NCBI GenBank assembly: GCA_003152315.1
Contig: PLZV01000020.1
Location: 1-34,527, forward strand
Direction of reading: 5' to 3'
Source: Verrucomicrobiota bacterium
Lineage (GTDB): Bacteria; Verrucomicrobiota; Verrucomicrobiia; Palsa-1439
Length of the DNA stretch: 34,527 nt
The position numbers and the translations under genes were made by a program. This document shows positions 2,794-21,537 of the stretch, piece after piece. Within the stretch, counting starts at the first letter, position 1. Every line of letters begins with the position of its first letter. The notes beneath the pieces are model-generated. The model saw nothing but the letters and a program-made list of their open reading frames with translations. It was not told where the DNA came from and ran no database searches.

Positions 2794-3025
2794 TGGACTT
2801 GAGCCGGGTTTTGAGGTAGGGTTTGTGCGGTTCTTTGAAGTAGAAGTGACCTGAAGTCTGGCTAAGGGCTGACGGCGGTCGCAGACCGCCGCTACAGGAA
2901 GAAGGACCCGCAAAACATGCGTTTCTGCGAAACGAAGCCATTTGTAATGTTGACCAAACTGCATTTATGCGATTGAGAGAGAATGGGTTACAGAGATTAC
3001 AGAAAAATGACAAATGGCTTCGTTT
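2794..3025 (+). repeat. Compound promoter-hairpin repeat, copy A
   Basis: This copy has a decayed promoter-like box (TGGACT at 2794-2799, 17 bases, TAGGGT at 2817-2822). GTTCTTTGA follows 13 bases after the start of the -10, the same offset as in copy B. A purine tract (GAAGGA, about 2900-2905) precedes a 19-residue ORF at 2917-2976 beginning MRFCET. The ORF overlaps the left arm of a perfect 16-bp inverted repeat (AAACGAAGCCATTTGT at 2930-2945; partner at 3010-3025; 64-base loop). A REP-like hairpin (2874-2895) sits between GTTCTTTGA and the ORF and makes this copy longer than copy B. The rest of the 2600-3164 gap holds REP copies 4 and 5 and nothing else I can identify. Confidence 0.7.
2874..2895 (+). 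repeat. REP-like hairpin inside repeat copy A
   Basis: The arms GGCGGTC and GACCGCC pair perfectly across a 3-base loop (GCA) and are followed by GCTAC, the same 3' pentamer as the REP family. The stem differs from copies 1-6, so it may be a second REP type. It interrupts the spacing otherwise shared by compound repeat copies A and B. Confidence 0.6.
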
Positions 3026-3164
3026 TTGCTGAAATGACGGCATTGTTTTGTGTTGTCGTTGGTGTGGGCGAAGCTTCTAGCATGGCGATAGCTCCGTTTG
3101 GTGCGTGTGGATTGGCCGGCGCATGCCGATCCGTCGCGGCATTGTCTAGCGGGAGGACCGGATT

Positions 3165-4502
3165 ATGGCAAACGAGATGGCGGATTTTCTGGCTGGTTTG
3201 AGGGCGCGGTATCCCGCCGAGACCGAATTTCATCAGGCTGTGACGGAAGTGGCGAAATCCGTCTGGCCGTTTCTTGAGAAGAACCCCAAGTATCGCAAGG
3301 CGAAAATCCTGGAGCGCATCGTCGAGCCCGAACGCGTTGTCTTGTTCCGCGTCACGTGGGTGGACCGCAACGGCGAGGTGCAAATCAACCGCGGCTATCG
3401 CGTGCAGATGAACAGCGCCATCGGCCCGTACAAGGGCGGGTTGCGGTTTCATCCATCGGTCACGCTTGGCATGCTGAAGTTCCTGGCGTTCGAGCAGGTT
3501 TTCAAGAACGCGCTGACGACGTTGCCGATGGGCGGCGGCAAGGGCGGGTCGGATTTCGACCCGAAAGGCAAGACTGACGAGGAAGTGATGTGGTTCTGCC
3601 AGAATTTCATGATGGAATTGGCCCGCCACATCGGACCCGACACCGACGTGCCGGCCGGCGATATCGGGGTCGGCGGACGCGAGATCGGGTATCTGTTTGG
3701 GCAGTACAAGAAACTGCGGAACGAGTTTACCGGGGTGCTCACGGGCAAGGGCATCAACTGGAGCGGCAGCCGCATCCGCGAGGAGGCCACGGGCTACGGG
3801 CTGTTGTATTTCGTCGAGGAAATGATGCGCACGCGGGGCAACTCGATTACCGGCAAGACGGTGGTGATTTCCGGTTCGGGCAACGTGGCGCAATTCGCCG
3901 CCGAGAAAGCCATGGTCCTGGGCGCAAAGGTGGTGACGCTTTCCGATTCGGATGGGTTTGCTTATGACGTGCGCGGCCTGGACGCCGAGAAACTGGCGTT
4001 CCTGAAAGACTTGAAGAACGTCCGCCGCGGACGCATCCGGGACTTCGCCAAACATTTCCACTGGCAATACTTCGACAAGCAACGGCCGTGGGGCATGAAA
4101 TGCGACGTGGCGCTGCCGTGCGCGACCCAGAACGAGATTGGCGGGCGCGACGCCGAGAAGTTGGTGCGCAACGGTTGCATGTGCGTCGGGGAAGGCGCGA
4201 ACATGCCGAGTTCGTTGGAGGCGGTGGAGATGTTTCTCGGCCACAAGATTCTGTTCGGGCCGGCCAAAGCCGCCAACGCAGGCGGCGTCTCGGTGAGCGG
4301 CCTCGAGATGTCGCAAAACAGCCAGCGGATGCAGTGGTCAGCTGAGGAAGTGGACAAGCGTCTCCGCGACATCATGAGGGCCATCCATAACCAGTGCGTC
4401 CGCTACGGTCAGCGCGAGGGGTTCATTAACTACGTCGACGGCGCGAACATTGCCGGGTTCCGCAAAGTTGCCGAGGCCATGCTCGACCAGGGAGTTGTTT
4501 GA
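3165..4502 (+). CDS. gdhA: NADP-type glutamate dehydrogenase
   Basis: This 445-residue enzyme has the length of small hexameric glutamate dehydrogenases, which interconvert 2-oxoglutarate plus ammonia with glutamate. Visible family blocks are GYRVQMNSAIGPYKGGLRFHPSV (substrate loop, near residue 80), LTTLPMGGGKGGSDFDPKGK with the catalytic-lysine region, and VPAGDIGVGGREIGYLFGQYK. The dinucleotide fold follows with VISGSGNVAQFAAEKA, then GEGANMPSS and PAKAANAGGVSVSGLEMSQNS near the C-terminus. GGGAGG at 3151-3156, 8 bases upstream, fixes the start. The form is most like biosynthetic NADP-dependent GdhA, but cofactor preference is inferred. It stands alone, 140 bases beyond repeat copy A, and precedes the cupin gene by 61 bases. 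Confidence 0.95.
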   Translation: MANEMADFLAGLRARYPAETEFHQAVTEVAKSVWPFLEKNPKYRKAKILERIVEPERVVLFRVTWVDRNGEVQINRGYRVQMNSAIGPYKGGLRFHPSVTLGMLKFLAFEQVFKNALTTLPMGGGKGGSDFDPKGKTDEEVMWFCQNFMMELARHIGPDTDVPAGDIGVGGREIGYLFGQYKKLRNEFTGVLTGKGINWSGSRIREEATGYGLLYFVEEMMRTRGNSITGKTVVISGSGNVAQFAAEKAMVLGAKVVTLSDSDGFAYDVRGLDAEKLAFLKDLKNVRRGRIRDFAKHFHWQYFDKQRPWGMKCDVALPCATQNEIGGRDAEKLVRNGCMCVGEGANMPSSLEAVEMFLGHKILFGPAKAANAGGVSVSGLEMSQNSQRMQWSAEEVDKRLRDIMRAIHNQCVRYGQREGFINYVDGANIAGFRKVAEAMLDQGVV

Positions 4503-4947: not shown

Positions 4948-5177
4948 ATATCGCCACTCGATAATTTTACTGGACAAGGTGTGCTGGAATGGGTATAGTC
5001 GAGCCAGTTCTTTGACAGGTGTAGAAAGTGGGCGTTTTTGTCAGGGCAAGAAGGGACGCAAAAACATGTGTTTCTGCGAAACGAACCCGAATTATTTCAC
5101 TCGACAAACAAGGGTTAAGTCGTTGTGGCGCCAATGAATAGGGCTAGAATAATGGAATGGTGAATTCGGGTTCGTTT
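4948..5177 (+). repeat. Compound promoter-hairpin repeat, copy B
   Basis: This copy contains a sigma70-like box (TGGACA at 4971-4976, 17 bases, TATAGT at 4994-4999), GTTCTTTGA at 5007-5015 and a purine tract AAGGGA at 5052-5056. A 23-residue ORF at 5066-5137 follows, beginning MCFCETNPNYF. A perfect 15-bp inverted repeat has arms at 5079-5093 (AAACGAACCCGAATT) and 5163-5177, with a 69-base loop. The first arm overlaps codons 5-10 of the ORF. Bases 4948-5003 read on the other strand match the 104-bp repeats at 17942-18045 and 20236-20339. This accounts for nearly all of the 4924-5281 gap. Confidence 0.75.
4971..4999 (+). promoter_or_regulatory. Sigma70-like promoter in repeat copy B
   Basis: TGGACA and TATAGT are separated by exactly 17 bases. 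The same boxes and spacing occur in repeat copies C and D. Transcription would start near 5006 and run through the FCET ORF and hairpin toward the MscS gene. Confidence 0.55.
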
Positions 5178-5281
5178 GGACGCGCCGTGAGGTTGCGGTG
5201 GCATCCATTGTTGGCTGGCCCGAGTGCCTACGAAGTTAGTTGAGAATTGACAACGTGAGGCGTCTCGCGGATAAAAACGCC

Positions 5282-7490: not shown

Positions 7491-9395
7491 ATGAAGAAAC
7501 GTTTAGTAGTTCTGTTCGCGACAGCTTTGTGCCTATTGTCCGCGGTACCTGCCCGATCCACTTGGGCCGCTGACCCAGGTCCCCGCTATGCGGACGCTTT
7601 TGTTCTCATCGAACAGGGTCAGACCGCCGAGGAGAAAGCAGATCTCGCGACCGCGTACCACAAGTATCAGGCCGCACTGGACATGTTACACACCATTCGG
7701 ACCGATGCGCCCGACTGGAATGCCCAAATGGTCGAGTACCGTCTGAAGGACTGTCAATCTCGCTTCGACGCGGTCAAGACGAAATTGCCGGAACCGCCTC
7801 CCGCGCCCGCCGCAGAGGCGCCTGCCGCACCTGTGGTCACACCTGCGGTTCAAGTGCCTGCTCCACCAGAGCCCGTAGCCACGCCTCCTGCTCCGTCACC
7901 GGCTCCAGCCGTTAAGGCCGCCACGGCCGATCATTCTGCAAAGCTCAAGACACAAATTGACAAACTTGAAGCGGAGAACCACCAGCTTAAATCCGATCTA
8001 GCTGAGGCAAAGCACGCCGCCAAGTCCAGTTCCCAGCTCGATGCGGTTGCCAAGGAGAACAAGGATCTCAAAGCCCAACTCGCCGCTGCTGAGAAAAAAG
8101 CTGCGGCAGTGAAATCCAACCCTCCCACCCCGGCACCTGTGCCTGTCGATTCTGGCGAAGTGAAGAAACTTCGCACCGAACTCGCCAATGCGCACGCCGA
8201 AGTCGATCGTTTGAAAAAAACGGCGGCCACACCGGCGACAGGGTCTTCGACAATCATTGCCAGCCCACCCGTGGCTGCTCCCCCGGCTGATTCCGCAGAA
8301 ATGAAGAGGCTCCGCGCGGAATTGAACAAGACTCGCGCCGAAGCTGACGCCGCGAAGAAATCAGCTGCGCAGGTCCCTGACCTGGAGAAACAAAACAAAG
8401 ACTTGAACGCAAGGCTTGCGACCGTCGAGAAGAAGTCATCGACACCGACAGTTGACCCGGTAGAATTGAAGAGACTCCGGACTGAAGCCGACACCGCGCG
8501 TGCCGACGCGGACAAGGCCCGCAAGTCCAGTGCTGATCTGGAAAAGAAAAATGCCGATCTGGGCGGCCAACTGGCAGCCGTAAAGAAGGAAGTCGCCGCG
8601 AAACCCACCATCCCGTCGGAGTCCCCAGAGTTAAAGAAGCTTCGTGGGGACCTGGATGCGGCTCGTACCGACGCCGCGGCGCAGACGAAGAAGAATGCGG
8701 CTCAGCTATCGGATCTACAGAAACAGAACAAGGATCTCAGTGCAAAGCTCGCATTGGCTGAGAAGAAGACGAATATCGCTTCTGGAGATTCCACCGAGGT
8801 CAAGAGCCTGCACGCCGAACTCGACAAGTCACACGCTGAAGTGGCCGACCTGAAGAAGCAGGTCGCTGCAAAACCAGTGGTTGCGTCAGTGCCTGTGGCT
8901 GACAGCAGCGAAGTCAAGAGCCTGCGCAGTCAATTAGCGGACACGCACAAAGAACTCGACCAGGCGAAGAAGTCTGCCAGCCAGGTTTCTGACCTGGAGA
9001 AGCAGAACAAAGACTTGAGCGCAAAGCTTGCCGCCGCCGATAAGAAGGCAGCCACCGCTGCCGCGAAACCCGCTCCTCTCGATAACTCGGCCGAGTTGAA
9101 GAAGCTCCGCGACGAACTCGACGCCACTCGCGCTGAGGCGAACAAGGGAAAGAAAGCCAGTGCACAGGTTGCCGACCTCGAGAAGCAAAACAAGGATCTC
9201 AGCGCGAAGCTCGCCGAGGAGAGGAAGGCGGAGGCCGAAGCCCCCACAGTCGCCCCGGATGTTCGTGTCATGAAGCAATTGCGCAATGAGAACTCATATC
9301 TGCGCAACCTGCTGGATACGTATGCGGAGCAGAATTCTGAATTGAAAGGCCAGTTGCGTCGTCACGATCAGAACCAAACCAAGAGCAGCCAATAG
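7491..9395 (+). CDS. Exported coiled-coil repeat protein
   Basis: The start ATG at 7491 is preceded by a strong AAGGAGG (7477-7483). The 634-residue product begins with a signal peptide (MKKRLVVLFATALCLLSAVPARSTWAA). A short helical region follows (residues about 30-95, with a TPR-like feel around YHKYQAALDMLHTI), then a Pro/Ala-rich linker (about 100-145) and a very long Lys/Ala/Glu/Asp-rich coiled coil to the end. The coil is built from about eight degenerate units. Six full-length units run from an SxE-KxLRxEL start through DLEKQNKDLSAKLAxxEKK, and units 2 and 6 are shortened. Linkers between units are Pro/Ser/Thr-rich. I do not recognise an enzymatic domain. An envelope spacer or periplasmic scaffold is likely. 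An intrinsic terminator follows, so it is probably monocistronic. Confidence 0.85.
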   Translation: MKKRLVVLFATALCLLSAVPARSTWAADPGPRYADAFVLIEQGQTAEEKADLATAYHKYQAALDMLHTIRTDAPDWNAQMVEYRLKDCQSRFDAVKTKLPEPPPAPAAEAPAAPVVTPAVQVPAPPEPVATPPAPSPAPAVKAATADHSAKLKTQIDKLEAENHQLKSDLAEAKHAAKSSSQLDAVAKENKDLKAQLAAAEKKAAAVKSNPPTPAPVPVDSGEVKKLRTELANAHAEVDRLKKTAATPATGSSTIIASPPVAAPPADSAEMKRLRAELNKTRAEADAAKKSAAQVPDLEKQNKDLNARLATVEKKSSTPTVDPVELKRLRTEADTARADADKARKSSADLEKKNADLGGQLAAVKKEVAAKPTIPSESPELKKLRGDLDAARTDAAAQTKKNAAQLSDLQKQNKDLSAKLALAEKKTNIASGDSTEVKSLHAELDKSHAEVADLKKQVAAKPVVASVPVADSSEVKSLRSQLADTHKELDQAKKSASQVSDLEKQNKDLSAKLAAADKKAATAAAKPAPLDNSAELKKLRDELDATRAEANKGKKASAQVADLEKQNKDLSAKLAEERKAEAEAPTVAPDVRVMKQLRNENSYLRNLLDTYAEQNSELKGQLRRHDQNQTKSSQ

Positions 9396-17241: not shown

Positions 17242-17352
17242 GTCTTTTCTGTCCGAGGAGAGCGGTACGTCTCCGAAGGTGCGTCAATGTAGTGGAAATG
17301 GGAAAAAATGCAAGGCATTTGCAGAACTGCCCGCAAGCACCAAAAAGTGGGT

Positions 17353-17428
17353 TGGTGGAGACGACGGGAGTTGAACCCGTGGCCTCCGCAATGCCATTGC
17401 GGCGCTCTACCAACTGAGCTACGTCCCC
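17353..17428 (-). tRNA. tRNA-Ala (anticodon GGC)
   Basis: The minus strand folds into a full cloverleaf. The acceptor stem is GGGGACG with CGTCTCC and includes the G3:U70 wobble that identifies alanine tRNAs. The D arm contains AGCTCAGTTGGTAGAGC. The anticodon stem CCGCA/TGCGG encloses ATGGCAT, so the anticodon is GGC. The T arm is GGGTTCAACTCCC-like, discriminator A is at 17356 and CCA is encoded at 17355-17353. It reads Ala GCC codons. It could share a transcript with typA. Confidence 0.96.
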
Positions 17429-17530
17429 AACCCGTTCCTGACAGCTTAGCGTGTGGATGCTAACGCCCGCATCCGCGATTGTCAAATGAACCGTGTGCAT
17501 GCAACCACCCCTCTCGTCCGCCGTCGTTCT

Positions 17531-17555
17531 GTAGCCACGCCGCTCTGTCGGCGTG
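17531..17555 (-). repeat. REP palindrome, copy 6 (distant)
   Basis: 25 bp with the same stem variant as copy 5 (CACGCCG, ACAGAG, CGGCGTG, GCTAC on the minus strand). It lies about 15 kb from the RAYT gene, showing that the family is dispersed along this chromosome. Confidence 0.8.
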
Positions 17556-17658
17556 CTCCTGTTATGCTCCGGTCCATCAAAGTGTCCAATTTGTTCCTGT
17601 CGTCCACGTTTCCGTCACGTAGCCCCACACAACCCCTCGAAATGGATTCGGCTTTCCC

Positions 17659-18045
17659 AAACGAACCCGATTCAGATTCTCGCGCCCATTTACGCAACGA
17701 TTTGCCTGCAAACACGTTACCAGCCTATTTGCCAACATTACAATCGGGTTCGTTTCGCAGAAACGCATGTTTTCACGCTCCCCCGAGCTGCGCACAGCAG
17801 CGAGTCGCTCCGTAGCCTTGGCGAAGGCGGATGCCTTGACCCCAACCCCCAATCCAAAGCGGAGCGCAGCATTGGCTGCGCGAGACGCCGCGATGCAGTT
17901 TTCGCGGCAATCGCCAATCCAAAATATTCTCCCATTCATTTCCCCGACTATACCCATTCCCCAACACGCTGTCCAGCAAATTTATTGAATAACGATATCC
18001 CGTCGATTGTCGCATCTGGTTGTGTAGATACCCCGCTTGCTGTTG
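17659..18045 (-). repeat. Compound promoter-hairpin repeat, copy C
   Basis: Read on the minus strand, this copy has a promoter box (TGGACA at 17975-17970, 17 bases, TATAGT at 17952-17947). About 180 bases later a purine tract (GGGGGAG) precedes an ORF starting at 17768 with MRFCETNPIVMLANR. A perfect 14-bp inverted repeat has arms at 17742-17755 and 17659-17672 with a 69-base loop. The 104-bp segment 17942-18045 is repeated at 20236-20339 with about 13 differences. The longer minus-strand ORF through the loop is not convincing as a gene beyond the repeated start. The remainder of 17429-18136 shows only REP copy 6. Confidence 0.72.
17947..17975 (-). promoter_or_regulatory. Sigma70-like promoter in repeat copy C
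   Basis: TGGACA, a 17-base spacer and TATAGT on the minus strand, matching copies B and D in boxes and spacing. Transcription would run away from the glycosyltransferase gene and through the FCET ORF and hairpin toward the tRNA. Confidence 0.5.
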
Positions 18046-18136
18046 TCCCCGCGGGCGCTGACCGCGGTCCCCCGTCAGCCGCCTCGCGGACCAATTCGGT
18101 TTGCCAACGCGCCCCGGCATGAGTCATGGGCTCTAA

Positions 18137-20140
18137 CTATTCTTGTGAAGAACGCGCCGACGATGAGACAGGGCGCGGGTGCTTTTCATCGAATCTTCGC
18201 AGCAATTCCAGGGTGACGGTGTTGCGCGGATCCTGCTTGAGAGACGATAGGTAGGCATCGCGGGCTGCCATAATATCTCCACTTTGTTCCAACGTCTGCG
18301 CCAGGATCCCATAGCTGATGGCGGGTCTAATGCCAAGCTGGATGTTGTGCCGACATTGGGTTTGGGTTTCCTGGGTCATCCCCAATTCATGATAAAGAAT
18401 CGCGAGGTTCACGTTACTCTCCGGATCATGGGGGTCGGCCTGGGATATCTCGCGACAGAGACGGAGGGCTTCGGTTTTCTGGCCGATGTTGAGATAACAG
18501 GTCATGAGCAGTTTCTTTACGTCCAGTAGCTCCGGCTCTTGTTGGAGAGCGCTCCGAAGACAGGTGATCGCGGCTTGATAGTCGCCCTGTCGGGCAAGGC
18601 CGGCTCCTTGGTTGGCATAGGTTTTTGCGCTGTTCAAAGCGTCTGGATAGGCGACGAATTGACCGTTCTTGCGGCAATCGAAAACCATATAGCCGGGGAA
18701 CGCTGCTTCACGAACCGGGGAAAAGTGGGTGCAGGCATACCGGTAAAGCACAGCGGCGTACACGGTGGGATCATCCAAAAACACCAGATACTTGATCTTG
18801 GTGGCGGGGTCACGGAGAAGTTCAAAGGCGGAGGTGGCACTGTGGTAGCGAATCCCCATCTGTTTCAGTGAAATCACCAATGGGTCCGTGTAGCTCAGAC
18901 CCGTCACGAGCAGTCCCTCGTCGGCAGCCAGGTGGTTCGCGACCCAGATTGGAATGGCTCGGGAGGGCCACCCGGGGGGACGATCAAGAACAGCGCTGGT
19001 ACGGCCGGCCCACGAAGAGCCGTTGTAGTATGGCTGAGGTACTCCAAACAGCGTTAAGACAATGTTGATGGCAAGCACGACCACAAGAATCAGCGTTCGC
19101 AGAAAGGAACCGGTGAAGAAAGCGATCGATAATCCAAGGAACGGCCACAGAGTGGGGATGAGGAATGTCAGCTCACGGACGTTGTTTCGAAAGTATGGCG
19201 CCAGAAACACCAACCACAAACTCGCCAGGCACAACGGAAGCAATAAGGGGGGCAATTCACGACGTCTTCTTACCGCGATCCAGATACCCACTCCCACCAA
19301 AAGCGCCACACCGGCATAATAGCGCCAAATTAAAACGATTTGAAACAAGCTCCGGTGCAGATTGAACCCGAATCCCGCCCGTATTTTCTCTTCCTGGAAA
19401 AAATTGAGAGTACTACTGTTCCACTTGGCGGCGATGATCATGGCGGTGACGGGTAAGAGCGCCAGAAACAGCGAGAGATACCCCCACCGGCGATTTCGTT
19501 TGTCAGCGATGACAAACGGGATCGCGAGCAAGATGAAAAACCACAGGCAGAGTGCCGTCAGTTTGGTCAAAACGGCCAAGGCCATCGTGACACCAAGAAG
19601 GATGAAATTTGACGCTCGCGCCCCGGGTCTTGAGAGATGAATCAGTTGTATGAGCGCACAGATGAGAAAGAAAACCGCAATAACGTCCGGCATGGCCTTC
19701 GTACTGAGGTAGACATGGAGCGGAAACACGGCCAGCAACCCGGCGGCCCAGAGGGCGCTGCGGTGACAATGAGTATACTGTCGCACCAACACCGCCATCG
19801 CTACAATCGAGAGCGCGCCGAACAGCACCGGCCAGATTTTCATCCCCAGTTCATTCATCCCCAGGAGATGGATGGAGGGAATGCAGAGCAACGCATAGAA
19901 GCAGTCGGGTCGCGCATGCGTCAGGGAGTCGGTAACGACCAAGGAACTTGGGTGATACGCGTAGATCAGAAAGTGACTTTCGTCGTTGTCCATGATCCAT
20001 CCCGTGATCCGGTAGCCACGTAGCGCCAAACCCAGAAGGACAATCGCCATCAGCGACCAGAAATACCATGCCGGGGCTCGTTTCTTTTCGGCAACAATGT
20101 CTGTCATGCCGGTCGAGGTTTTAGGCAGCGAGGGAGTCAT
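18137..20140 (-). CDS. GT39/ArnT-type membrane glycosyltransferase with C-terminal TPR repeats
   Basis: This 667-residue protein has about 11-12 hydrophobic membrane segments (residues about 20-400) and a first outer loop carrying the acidic motif MDNDESHFLI. The Asp-Glu pair is the hallmark of polyprenyl-phosphate-sugar dependent GT-C enzymes (PMT/ArnT). A soluble domain follows (about 400-500), and the last 160 residues form TPR-like helical pairs (ANQGAGLARQGDYQAAITCLRSAL; VNLAILYHELGMTQET; YGILAQTLEQSGDIMAARDAY). The acceptor may be lipid, protein or glycan. The gene lies between two direct 104-bp repeats, and the upstream one supplies a good promoter with a leader of about 95 bases. A second ATG (residue 12) is a possible start. 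Confidence 0.85.
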   Translation of the reverse strand: MTPSLPKTSTGMTDIVAEKKRAPAWYFWSLMAIVLLGLALRGYRITGWIMDNDESHFLIYAYHPSSLVVTDSLTHARPDCFYALLCIPSIHLLGMNELGMKIWPVLFGALSIVAMAVLVRQYTHCHRSALWAAGLLAVFPLHVYLSTKAMPDVIAVFFLICALIQLIHLSRPGARASNFILLGVTMALAVLTKLTALCLWFFILLAIPFVIADKRNRRWGYLSLFLALLPVTAMIIAAKWNSSTLNFFQEEKIRAGFGFNLHRSLFQIVLIWRYYAGVALLVGVGIWIAVRRRRELPPLLLPLCLASLWLVFLAPYFRNNVRELTFLIPTLWPFLGLSIAFFTGSFLRTLILVVVLAINIVLTLFGVPQPYYNGSSWAGRTSAVLDRPPGWPSRAIPIWVANHLAADEGLLVTGLSYTDPLVISLKQMGIRYHSATSAFELLRDPATKIKYLVFLDDPTVYAAVLYRYACTHFSPVREAAFPGYMVFDCRKNGQFVAYPDALNSAKTYANQGAGLARQGDYQAAITCLRSALQQEPELLDVKKLLMTCYLNIGQKTEALRLCREISQADPHDPESNVNLAILYHELGMTQETQTQCRHNIQLGIRPAISYGILAQTLEQSGDIMAARDAYLSSLKQDPRNTVTLELLRRFDEKHPRPVSSSARSSQE

Positions 20141-20235
20141 GGGTCAGTTTGAATATAACGGATCGTTTCAGTGATGGGAATTCTGTTGTATTCTCAAATG
20201 AAGCGTCCGCAAGCGACCGCCCCCTCTCCCTACTG

Positions 20236-20339
20236 CCCCGACTATACCCATCCCCCAACACGCTGTCCAGTAAATTTATCGAGCACCGATAGCCAGTCGA
20301 TTGTCGCATCTGGTTGTGCAGACACCCCGTTTGCCGCTG
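20236..20339 (-). repeat. Promoter-bearing repeat, copy D
   Basis: A 104-bp segment that matches 17942-18045 with about 13 substitutions and no gaps in the promoter core. A shorter match lies at 4948-5003 on the opposite strand. Unlike copies A-C, no FCET ORF or inverted repeat follows. Instead, the coding sequence at 20140 begins about 95 bases downstream. Confidence 0.8.
20241..20269 (-). promoter_or_regulatory. Promoter of the GT39-TPR gene
   Basis: TGGACA (20269-20264), 17 bases, TATAGT (20246-20241) on the minus strand. The predicted start is near 20234, giving an untranslated leader of about 94 bases before the ATG at 20140. The box lies inside repeat copy D. Confidence 0.6.
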
Positions 20340-20476
20340 CAGCTGTGCATTTACCGGTACCCGCCTTGTCCGCCGTAGCGGCCTCGCGTAGGAGGAAAGC
20401 AGGTTCCTTTTCAGAATCGTGTTTCCGCGATTCACGCCTTGCCCTCCGATCGTAGGGCGCAATGCCTGTCGTGTAG

Positions 20477-20525
20477 GTATCCCGCCGTTTCTTTGCGTCA
20501 TATGCCGTGCCGCGCGGCGGGATAC
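20477..20525. repeat. Stem-loop in the 20340-20649 gap
   Basis: A perfect 11-bp inverted repeat (GTATCCCGCCG at 20477-20487, CGGCGGGATAC at 20515-20525) with a 27-base loop. No T-run follows on either strand, so it is not a standard terminator. I see no gene in 20340-20649. Confidence 0.6.
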
Positions 20526-20649
20526 ACGCGGCGGACGGGGCCCCGCCCCACAATCCGGAGGAGAGTAGTAGTATCAAGATGCACCCTTCCAACCCGGTCC
20601 CGTTACTTCCCGCTTTCATTTCGTTTCGGTTGTGCTAGCCTTTCGGATC

Positions 20650-21537
20650 ATGAATTCAAAAGCACGCTACGCTTCTCTGTTGTTTGTTTTCGGGTGGGTT
20701 TCCGCGACCGGGCTCTTTGCCCAGGCACCCAAAGTCGATTTTCCCGCGGCCAGCCCCACTGCTACCCTTAAACAACACATCGGTCTCACCGACATCGAGA
20801 TCACCTATTCCCGACCCAGCGTCAAGGGACGCGTGATCTACGGCGGCATCGTCCCTTACGGCGAGGTGTGGCGCACCGGCGCAAACGCCTCCACGAAAAT
20901 CTCCTTTTCAACCCCCGTGAAGCTCAATGGCAACGCAATTCCCGCAGGCAAGTACGCCCTCTTCACCATCCCGGGCGAGGCGGAATGGACCATCATCATC
21001 TCGAAGAACACAAACGGTTTCGGTGCCTTCGGCTACAAACCAGACGAGGATCTGGTGCGCTTCAAAGTCACTCCCGTGACCCTTGCGGATACCAGCGTCG
21101 AGACGTTCGCCATCGAGTTCAATCACATCCGCGACGAGACCGCCCTTCTCGAACTGGTTTGGGAGAAGACCGTCGTCCCCATCAAGCTGGAGGTCGACGT
21201 GGTCAGTAAGGTCGTCCCGCAAATCGACGCCGCCATGGCCTCGAAGGACAAGCAACAGCCGCAATTCTATTTCCAGGCCGCGACGTTCTACTTCAATCAC
21301 GATCTGGACCTGAAGAAGGCACTCGCCTGGCTGGATACCGGCCTCGCCGACAAGCCCCGGATCGCTTACGAACTGCTCAATCTAAAGGCCAAGATTCTCG
21401 CCAAACAAGGTGACAAAGATGGCGCAATTGCCGCCGCCAAGGAGTCCAGCGAGTTGGCGATCAAAGCCGAAGGTCCTTCCAGTTCGTTCGTGAGAATGAA
21501 TCAGGATCTGATCTCCAGCCTCCAAACAAAACCATAA
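20650..21537 (+). CDS. DUF2911 protein with C-terminal helical repeat region, exported
   Basis: This 295-residue protein begins with a signal peptide (about residues 1-25, ending GLFAQ). The DUF2911 domain spans about residues 35-185: IEITYSRPSVKGRVIYGGIVPYGEVWRTGANASTKISFS, IPAGKYALFTIPGEAEWTIIISKN. A TPR-like helical extension follows (about 195-290; FYFQAATFYFNHDLDLKKALAWLDTGLA). The family is common in Bacteroidetes and PVC bacteria and has no established biochemical role. The ATG at 20650 is preferred over a GTG 18 bases earlier because the signal peptide begins there. Confidence 0.85.
   Translation: MNSKARYASLLFVFGWVSATGLFAQAPKVDFPAASPTATLKQHIGLTDIEITYSRPSVKGRVIYGGIVPYGEVWRTGANASTKISFSTPVKLNGNAIPAGKYALFTIPGEAEWTIIISKNTNGFGAFGYKPDEDLVRFKVTPVTLADTSVETFAIEFNHIRDETALLELVWEKTVVPIKLEVDVVSKVVPQIDAAMASKDKQQPQFYFQAATFYFNHDLDLKKALAWLDTGLADKPRIAYELLNLKAKILAKQGDKDGAIAAAKESSELAIKAEGPSSSFVRMNQDLISSLQTKP

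Follow-up and report, generated by a model that had tools for sequence, protein, structure and literature searches.

Why does a single glycosyltransferase gene lie between two direct copies of a promoter-bearing repeat? The question is raised by a 34,527-nt stretch of DNA, hereafter the window (positions 1 to 34,527 of contig PLZV01000020.1, assembly GCA_003152315.1), from a Verrucomicrobiota bacterium of the Palsa-1439 lineage, in which two 104-bp repeats, termed here W1 and W2, flank a gene of GT39 type. The initial annotation of this DNA proposed that the repeat may act at once as a movable promoter and a recombination site. We conclude instead that W1 and W2 are probably the promoter heads of dispersed, operator-controlled hairpin transcription units, that these units may derive from an element composed of a promoter, a gene for a protein with a characteristic STGP motif and an inverted-repeat module, and that modules would have been exchanged behind promoters that were kept; their transcription and function we infer from sequence.

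The repeat pair and the gene between its copies

The features around the pair, all on the minus strand, are as follows:

17353-17428, minus: tRNA-Ala (GGC), with its own promoter-like TTGACA-17-TAGCAT at 17485-17457
17655-17768, minus: inverted-repeat module behind W1 (81.4 bits; arms AAACGAACCCGATT / AATCGGGTTCGTTT)
17942-18045, minus: left-hand repeat W1, comprising a promoter core at 17941-17998 (61.7 bits) and 46 bp of upstream DNA common to W2 alone
17947-17975, minus: predicted W1 promoter TGGACA-17-TATAGT, reading towards the module, tRNA-Ala and bipA
17983-17997, minus: palindromic operator-like site of W1, TATCG-N5-CAATA, in the class-a position upstream of the -35 element
18137-20140, minus: GT39-like glycosyltransferase with C-terminal TPRs (PMT_2 and TPR matches)
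20236-20339, minus: right-hand repeat W2, with its promoter core at 20235-20292, no module, 95 nt before the GT39 start
20241-20269, minus: predicted W2 promoter TGGACA-17-TATAGT, reading towards the GT39 gene

As first described, the two copies are direct and flank only this gene: they share 91 of 104 positions (88%; longest exact run, 23 nt), lie 2294 bp apart, and enclose one open reading frame, whose product matches PMT_2 (PF13231, E 1.5e-11) and TPR families. Because the second copy is recovered with a whole-genome E of 3.7e-31, the resemblance is not due to chance, and the DNA just outside the pair is identical at only 8/30 and 7/30 positions. A search of the genome (4.89 Mb in 62 contigs) with one copy returned 31 matches, of which those other than the pair all stop by position 72 of 104; the repeat is thus made up of a 58-bp promoter core that belongs to a genome-wide family and 46 bp (40/46 identical) private to W1 and W2. 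Because only these 46 bp are private to the pair, we regard W1 and W2 as a local duplication of a promoter together with upstream DNA.

That the repeats bear promoters is borne out by TGGACA-N17-TATAGT in both copies, which matches the sigma-70 consensus at 10 of 12 positions with a hexamer spacing within 16-18 nt and is conserved across the family. The further proposal that the upstream copy, W2, supplies the promoter of the GT39 gene is plausible: 95 nt separate its core from the ATG and our scan found no TTG-type promoter between them, but a weaker match (9/12) does lie there, at 20180-20152. On the simplest account, W2 would be a promoter head that was duplicated together with the 46 bp of upstream DNA, lacks a module and now serves the GT39 gene, which most likely borrowed it.

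A promoter family confined to three of 39 genomes

Alignment of 31 copies defined the core of what we call class-a promoters (about 58 bp): on the strand reading towards the gene, TATCG-N5-CGATA is followed by an AT-rich tract, CTGGACA, 17 nt and GGTATAGTCGG. CTGGAC is present in 31/31 aligned copies and TATAGT in 26/31, with a consensus spacing of 17. A sequence model built from this alignment (R1) was searched against 39 genomes at E <= 1e-3, yielding 90 copies in the source genome, 48 in the congener G002 and two in the congener G001, whereas the remaining 36 genomes gave none; the exact core pattern had no exact match in GTDB genomes or IMG/VR. We defined gene starts with a simple gene caller of our own, so that promoter-gene distances and orientations are approximate. 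By this measure 89 of the 90 copies are intergenic (three have no downstream gene in the stretch retrieved), and, GT39 apart, no next co-directional gene begins less than 150 nt from the core (median 536 nt, n=63). A boxA-like word (TTCTTTGA within 40 nt of the core) accompanies 36 of the 90 copies, where about 0.05 would be expected by chance. A comparison with rRNA promoters found no 16S match in the source assembly.

This family bears directly on the idea of a recombination site. Were the GT39 gene deletable or duplicable as a cassette, one would expect direct copies enclosing exactly one gene, and the 88% identity of the pair, the duplication of 46 bp beyond the promoter core and the absence of the gene from the bipA locus of both congeners all fit; the core, however, is that of a genome-wide promoter family, and the longest exact run is 23 nt, although recombination across 104 bp at 88% identity could in principle still delete GT39. 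In G002 the order module, tRNA-Ala(GGC), bipA and GH31 is as in the source genome, with a response-regulator-like gene upstream and no GT39, DUF2911 or R1 match (E <= 1) there; the absence of the gene thus coincides with the loss of all upstream synteny in the fetched stretch, not with a clean one-repeat allele. In G001 a module lies upstream of tRNA-Ala, and bipA is about 7 kb away. Homologues of the GT39-TPR protein occur in G002 (33% identity) and in G005 (two pieces, 37 and 43%), and the 10.7-12 kb around them contain no R1 or R2 match. No single-repeat allele and no GT39 gene between repeats was seen in the three relatives examined at the locus or the gene, and the order of repeat, gene and repeat is therefore so far seen in the source genome only. 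Moreover, most units examined in G002 (25/32, see below) stand by genes that neighbour a unit in the source genome too. Together these observations make a movable cassette highly improbable.

Inverted-repeat modules behind the promoters

What follows a class-a promoter is typically not a gene but an inverted repeat: a 5' arm like GTTTCTGCGAAACGAA is present after 84 of the 90 copies and both arms after 82, at distances from 63 to several hundred nucleotides. These modules are 105-108 nt long in 81 of 82 cases (66 nt in the remaining one), with arms of 13-15 bp that share a constant part, AAACGAA / TTCGTT, and a loop of about 70 nt. The arms would form a stem: six of its 13 pairs show two-sided changes, some with classes of nearly equal size (e.g., A-U 43 / G-C 36), and mutual information ranked arm pairs among the top while revealing no convincing interior helix. 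The interior is poor in C (15%), and its identity between paralogues is 0.59, compared with 0.56 after shuffling. By sequence, a unit therefore consists of a sigma-70-type promoter with a palindrome, sometimes a boxA-like word, a variable spacer and a module.

Arm class and a second arm copy, A2, go together: in the source genome A2 lies behind 36 of the 37 modules of CCCA type and is absent behind all 41 of the CCGG, CCCGA and GCCA types (of three others, two have it and one does not). We rejected by eye a coding reading, prompted by the ATG that in many copies follows a purine-rich stretch, given that module length varies over 105-108 nt and that the ATG is often absent. A separate subtype with CGAATCCCCCA or CGAACTCCCC arms and a different 3' arm (L070, L086, L120, L225, L226) sometimes stands in tandem before an ordinary module, and two tandem modules follow one promoter at L211, L213, C1:26194/26588 and C48:122273/122622.

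The source genome holds at least 138 distinct modules (113 among the matches listed, plus fetched loci). Module-model matches number at least 150 there, 107 in G002 and 73 in G001, although the matches beyond those listed may in part be echoes of the palindromic arms on the reverse strand. In a phylum sample of 337 genomes no carrier other than the source genome appeared; because 11 candidates were scored per genome under strict filters, weak relatives could be missed. A search with the arm pattern returned 15 stretches in genomes and one in viral contigs, by our estimate about chance level, and among these 16 loci only L146 matched the model strongly (85.6 bits; all others <=33 bits). L146 (PMAF01000280.1) is the only module-matching place in a metagenome-assembled genome (MAG) filed under Hyphomicrobiales, and its contig is probably misbinned. 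Three contigs of one Zixiibacteriota MAG contain inverted repeats of 106-107 nt that by eye resemble modules (L136, L140, L145; 23-28 bits), all preceded by GGGGCCCC..TGTTTTT-like DNA; a search of that whole MAG with the model gave no match at E <= 1e-3.

A second promoter class with the same palindrome

Twenty modules without an R1 promoter were fetched and their upstream DNA examined. Each of the 20 is preceded, at no more than 600 nt, by a site like CTGGACATCGTATTCCGATAGTGGTATAGT in which the ATCG-N5-CGAT palindrome of class a sits inside the -35/-10 spacer (class b). Sites matching CTGGACATCGTATTCCGATA with at most three mismatches number 49 in the source genome, 30 in G002 and one in G001, as compared with 1, 0 and 0 for reversed-pattern controls. 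A module follows 46 of the 49 source-genome sites, at a chance expectation of about 1% per site: three lie behind an STGP gene and 43 within 800 nt, the latter tally combining 35/49 among the matches listed, seven from fetched loci and the module behind C48:67762. The three sites without a full module comprise one at a contig end, one with a 5' arm only and one with none.

Classes a and b thus have the same half-sites at the same N5 spacing, in two positions relative to the -35 element. ATCG-N5-CGAT at two promoter positions is what a shared regulator would leave, and a single predicted DNA-binding protein may control all units through this palindrome.

A protein gene beside the modules

Some units contain a gene. 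Behind class-b promoters at L235, L239 and L241 in the source genome and L247 in G002 there is a frame of 322-337 aa (from chosen starts) with the motif ANRRNAxKSTGPRTxxGKAxSRMNAVKHG, here called STGP, and a module begins 15-123 nt after its stop; at L152 and L161 in G001 an STGP gene of 301-305 aa lies just before a module. A module therefore directly follows all six STGP genes encountered, of which four came from loci fetched as class-b promoter sites and two (L152, L161) from loci fetched for module matches. Most of the modules stand without a gene. The family may descend from an element of promoter, STGP gene and module, of which the gene-less copies would have become the majority.

Three of the six proteins, when compared with four libraries, matched no credible family: Pfam DUF6277 (E 0.021) and a PADLOC Cas1 profile (E 0.015) were below the cut-off or chance-like, the best NCBIfam and PHROGs values were 0.086 and 0.13, and no Y1 transposase family was among the matches. 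A profile of all six found no solved relative in the PDB (best 0.71), and no STGP relative was found in viral contigs or phages. The single plasmid match to the protein covers a third of the query (E 9e-5) and is a gene from Planctomyces, which in turn matches one Paludisphaera gene and one Marivivens gene. Both planctomycete frames run through CCGAACGAAGCCAA, which resembles one arm class; the 3' arm was not found there, and we treat the resemblance as a lead only.

Other genes also lie near units. IS1595-type transposase genes are indicated by a Pfam match in L105 and L236 and by a peptide motif alone in L068 and L151, and L105 and L236 have a DUF3800 gene after a shortened or half module. 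The IS1595 transposase, seen in these four loci, was considered as a candidate mover.

Units at orthologous loci of a congener

We fetched 32 of the 48 G002 promoter matches; seven had no matching locus, and 25 (one of them, L201, matching a long window ambiguously) adjoin genes that also neighbour a unit in the source genome. Omitting L201, six loci without a strict module in one or both species, and the second element in one locus left 18 module pairs, whereas the mean identities given for promoters, interiors and flanks still include the L201 rows and the second element of one matched locus. Flanks and spacers at orthologous loci are about 0.57 identical, close to the 0.56 obtained for shuffled interiors. 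In 17 of the 18 module pairs the two species have different arm classes; arms nevertheless pair at 13.6 of 15 positions within a unit, compared with 11.4 when swapped between species. At L115/L028 the arm and A2 changed together; at L117/L010 A2 is unchanged despite changes in both arms. We infer that a module is frequently exchanged in one piece behind a promoter that remains in place, and that what is conserved is pairing and length, not sequence. The piece exchanged between loci would comprise the module and its near flanks.

These data also speak to whether the units are inert remains of a miniature mobile element, their conservation a by-product of gene conversion among copies. Dispersal in many copies, a copy number that differs between congeners, arm classes that switch at orthologous sites and a longer version that carries a gene would all fit such remains. 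Yet promoter, arm pairing and module length persist where flanks and spacers have fallen to 0.57, and each locus has arms that match one another more closely than they match those of its orthologue, which makes inertness unlikely.

Independent RNA genes or leaders

The preferred account, in which many units are independent RNA genes, would rest on the promoter, the boxA-like word and the covarying stem. Several observations weigh against it. The boxA-like word is absent from 54 of the 90 class-a copies; promoters at orthologous loci (identity 0.74, n=28) are scarcely more alike than paralogous ones (0.70); interiors fold no better than shuffles (mean z -0.16) and are 0.61 identical at orthologous loci (n=21), as against 0.59 among paralogues and 0.56 after shuffling, so that they show no conserved payload; the link to STGP consists of six genes, two of which came to light because of their modules; and the next gene is co-directional in 63 of 87 cases and convergent in 24, a bias (p = 3.5e-5) that fits leaders better than free RNA genes.

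The units could accordingly be 5' leaders, in which a promoter and a cis-acting hairpin switch, alternating between an A/A' stem and an A'/A2 hairpin, control the next gene. The presence of A2 behind nearly all CCCA-type modules would permit such mutually exclusive hairpins, and the joint change of arm and A2 at L115/L028 is as expected, but at L117/L010 A2 stayed when both arms changed. The median of 536 nt from core to start codon and the convergent cases also speak against leaders, terminator-like sites at 17300-20700 in the window occur at shuffle level, and downstream genes keep their own promoters: TTG-type promoters (score >= 7) precede 21 of 63 genes behind units and 40 of 172 controls (shuffles: 7/63 and 10/172). 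Because own promoters are as frequent as in controls and 24 next genes are convergent, many units look independent; because co-direction is favored, a leader role is possible for part of them. As a description of the whole family, we think the leader reading improbable, and continue to favor hairpin transcription units, many of them probably independent.

Other features of the window

Besides the unit headed by W1, the window has two more, for a total of three, with intact promoters in two and a degenerate promoter in one:

2771-2825 (approximate), plus: degenerate promoter copy (partial match, E 0.117; palindrome and TGGACT kept, -10 TAGGGT by eye)
2830-2839, plus: boxA-like word after the degenerate copy
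2917-3029, plus: inverted-repeat module of this unit (78.5 bits), before a Glu/Leu/Phe/Val dehydrogenase gene at 3165-4502
4948-5003, plus: third promoter copy W3, intact (60.8 bits)
5006-5017, plus: boxA-like AGTTCTTTGACA behind W3, read by eye
5066-5181, plus: inverted-repeat module behind W3 (77.4 bits)

A scan of the window with the module model gave six matches that correspond to three modules, the remainder being reverse-strand echoes of the palindromic arms. Among 4227 Rfam covariance models, tRNA alone matched in the window at gathering scores, and nothing matched in six unit loci at E <= 1. Short palindromes of the form GCCGACAGAGCGGC..GGCTAC occur seven times in the window with at most two changes (1933-2716 and 17520-17556), and small palindromes akin to them fill promoter-module spacers; they resemble the GTAG-tagged REPs reported for PVC bacteria (PMC3733652). 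A gene at 7491-9395 contains five repeats of about 53 nt that by eye encode a coiled-coil-like EKQNKDL pattern.

Discussion

The closest likeness is to REP/REPIN-RAYT systems, which (PMC8049555, PMC3733652, PMC8266576, PMC3116915) also consist of many short intergenic palindromic units that are long kept, with a protein gene beside a unit and most copies gene-less. Here too a protein gene stands beside a repeat, in all six STGP genes encountered, while most repeats stand alone. A REP, however, is a palindrome of 20-40 bp tagged GTAG at one end, whereas our units carry their own promoter with an operator-like palindrome, and their modules combine a near-constant length of 105-108 nt with AAACGAA / TTCGTT arms, whose classes covary, and a loop of about 70 nt. 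The REP-RAYT protein, moreover, is an IS200/IS605-like tyrosine (Y1) transposase, and the three STGP proteins scanned match no Pfam family, tyrosine transposases included. The STGP link suggests a REPIN-RAYT-like relation, but one in which no tyrosine transposase has been recognized.

Miniature inverted-repeat transposable elements (MITEs) and SINE-like bacterial repeats such as ERIC, RUP and Correia are inverted-repeat, multi-copy and intergenic. Our modules are likewise multi-copy and intergenic, with terminal inverted repeats (13 stem pairs), but differ in being coupled to an upstream promoter at variable distance, in the compensatory changes of their arms and in an interior that is free in sequence at near-fixed length. 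MITEs are further marked by target-site duplications and empty sites; the flanks of our units differ between congeners almost as random sequences would. Integron attC sites, with their RYYYAAC / GTTRRRY core sites, were also considered for comparison. Leaders of rRNA type combine a promoter, boxA, a word bound by NusB/S10, and processing stems. The units may be analogous in having a promoter, a boxA-like word and a long-range stem that would enclose an RNA (compare PMC4807359). Unlike those leaders, they have no rRNA inside, and the predicted boxA-like word is limited to a minority of class-a copies. Cuckoo RNAs form a multi-copy small-RNA regulon of paralogous genes under shared control; the present units occur in many more copies, lack a conserved interior and have protein-coding relatives. 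Among papers judged by title and the beginning of the abstract, none was found that names this repeat family.

A bolder reading, which we advance only tentatively, is that the STGP protein and the hairpin module make up a protein-RNA (or protein-hairpin DNA) element not yet described. The protein would recognize the stem and copy or swap modules behind kept, operator-controlled promoters, and the outcome would be a regulon of more than 100 hairpin RNAs in each genome, in which the stems remain paired although one sequence is exchanged for another.

If the family is what we propose, it would join REPIN-RAYT as a population of bacterial repeats that is kept for long and has a protein partner of its own, but one that also brings a regulated promoter and a covarying stem and can therefore be tested from two sides, as an RNA regulon and as a system that copies repeats. 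It would also explain a class of promoter-bearing repeats otherwise mistaken for recombination cassettes: a gene between two repeats here points to an unrecognized multi-copy genetic element.

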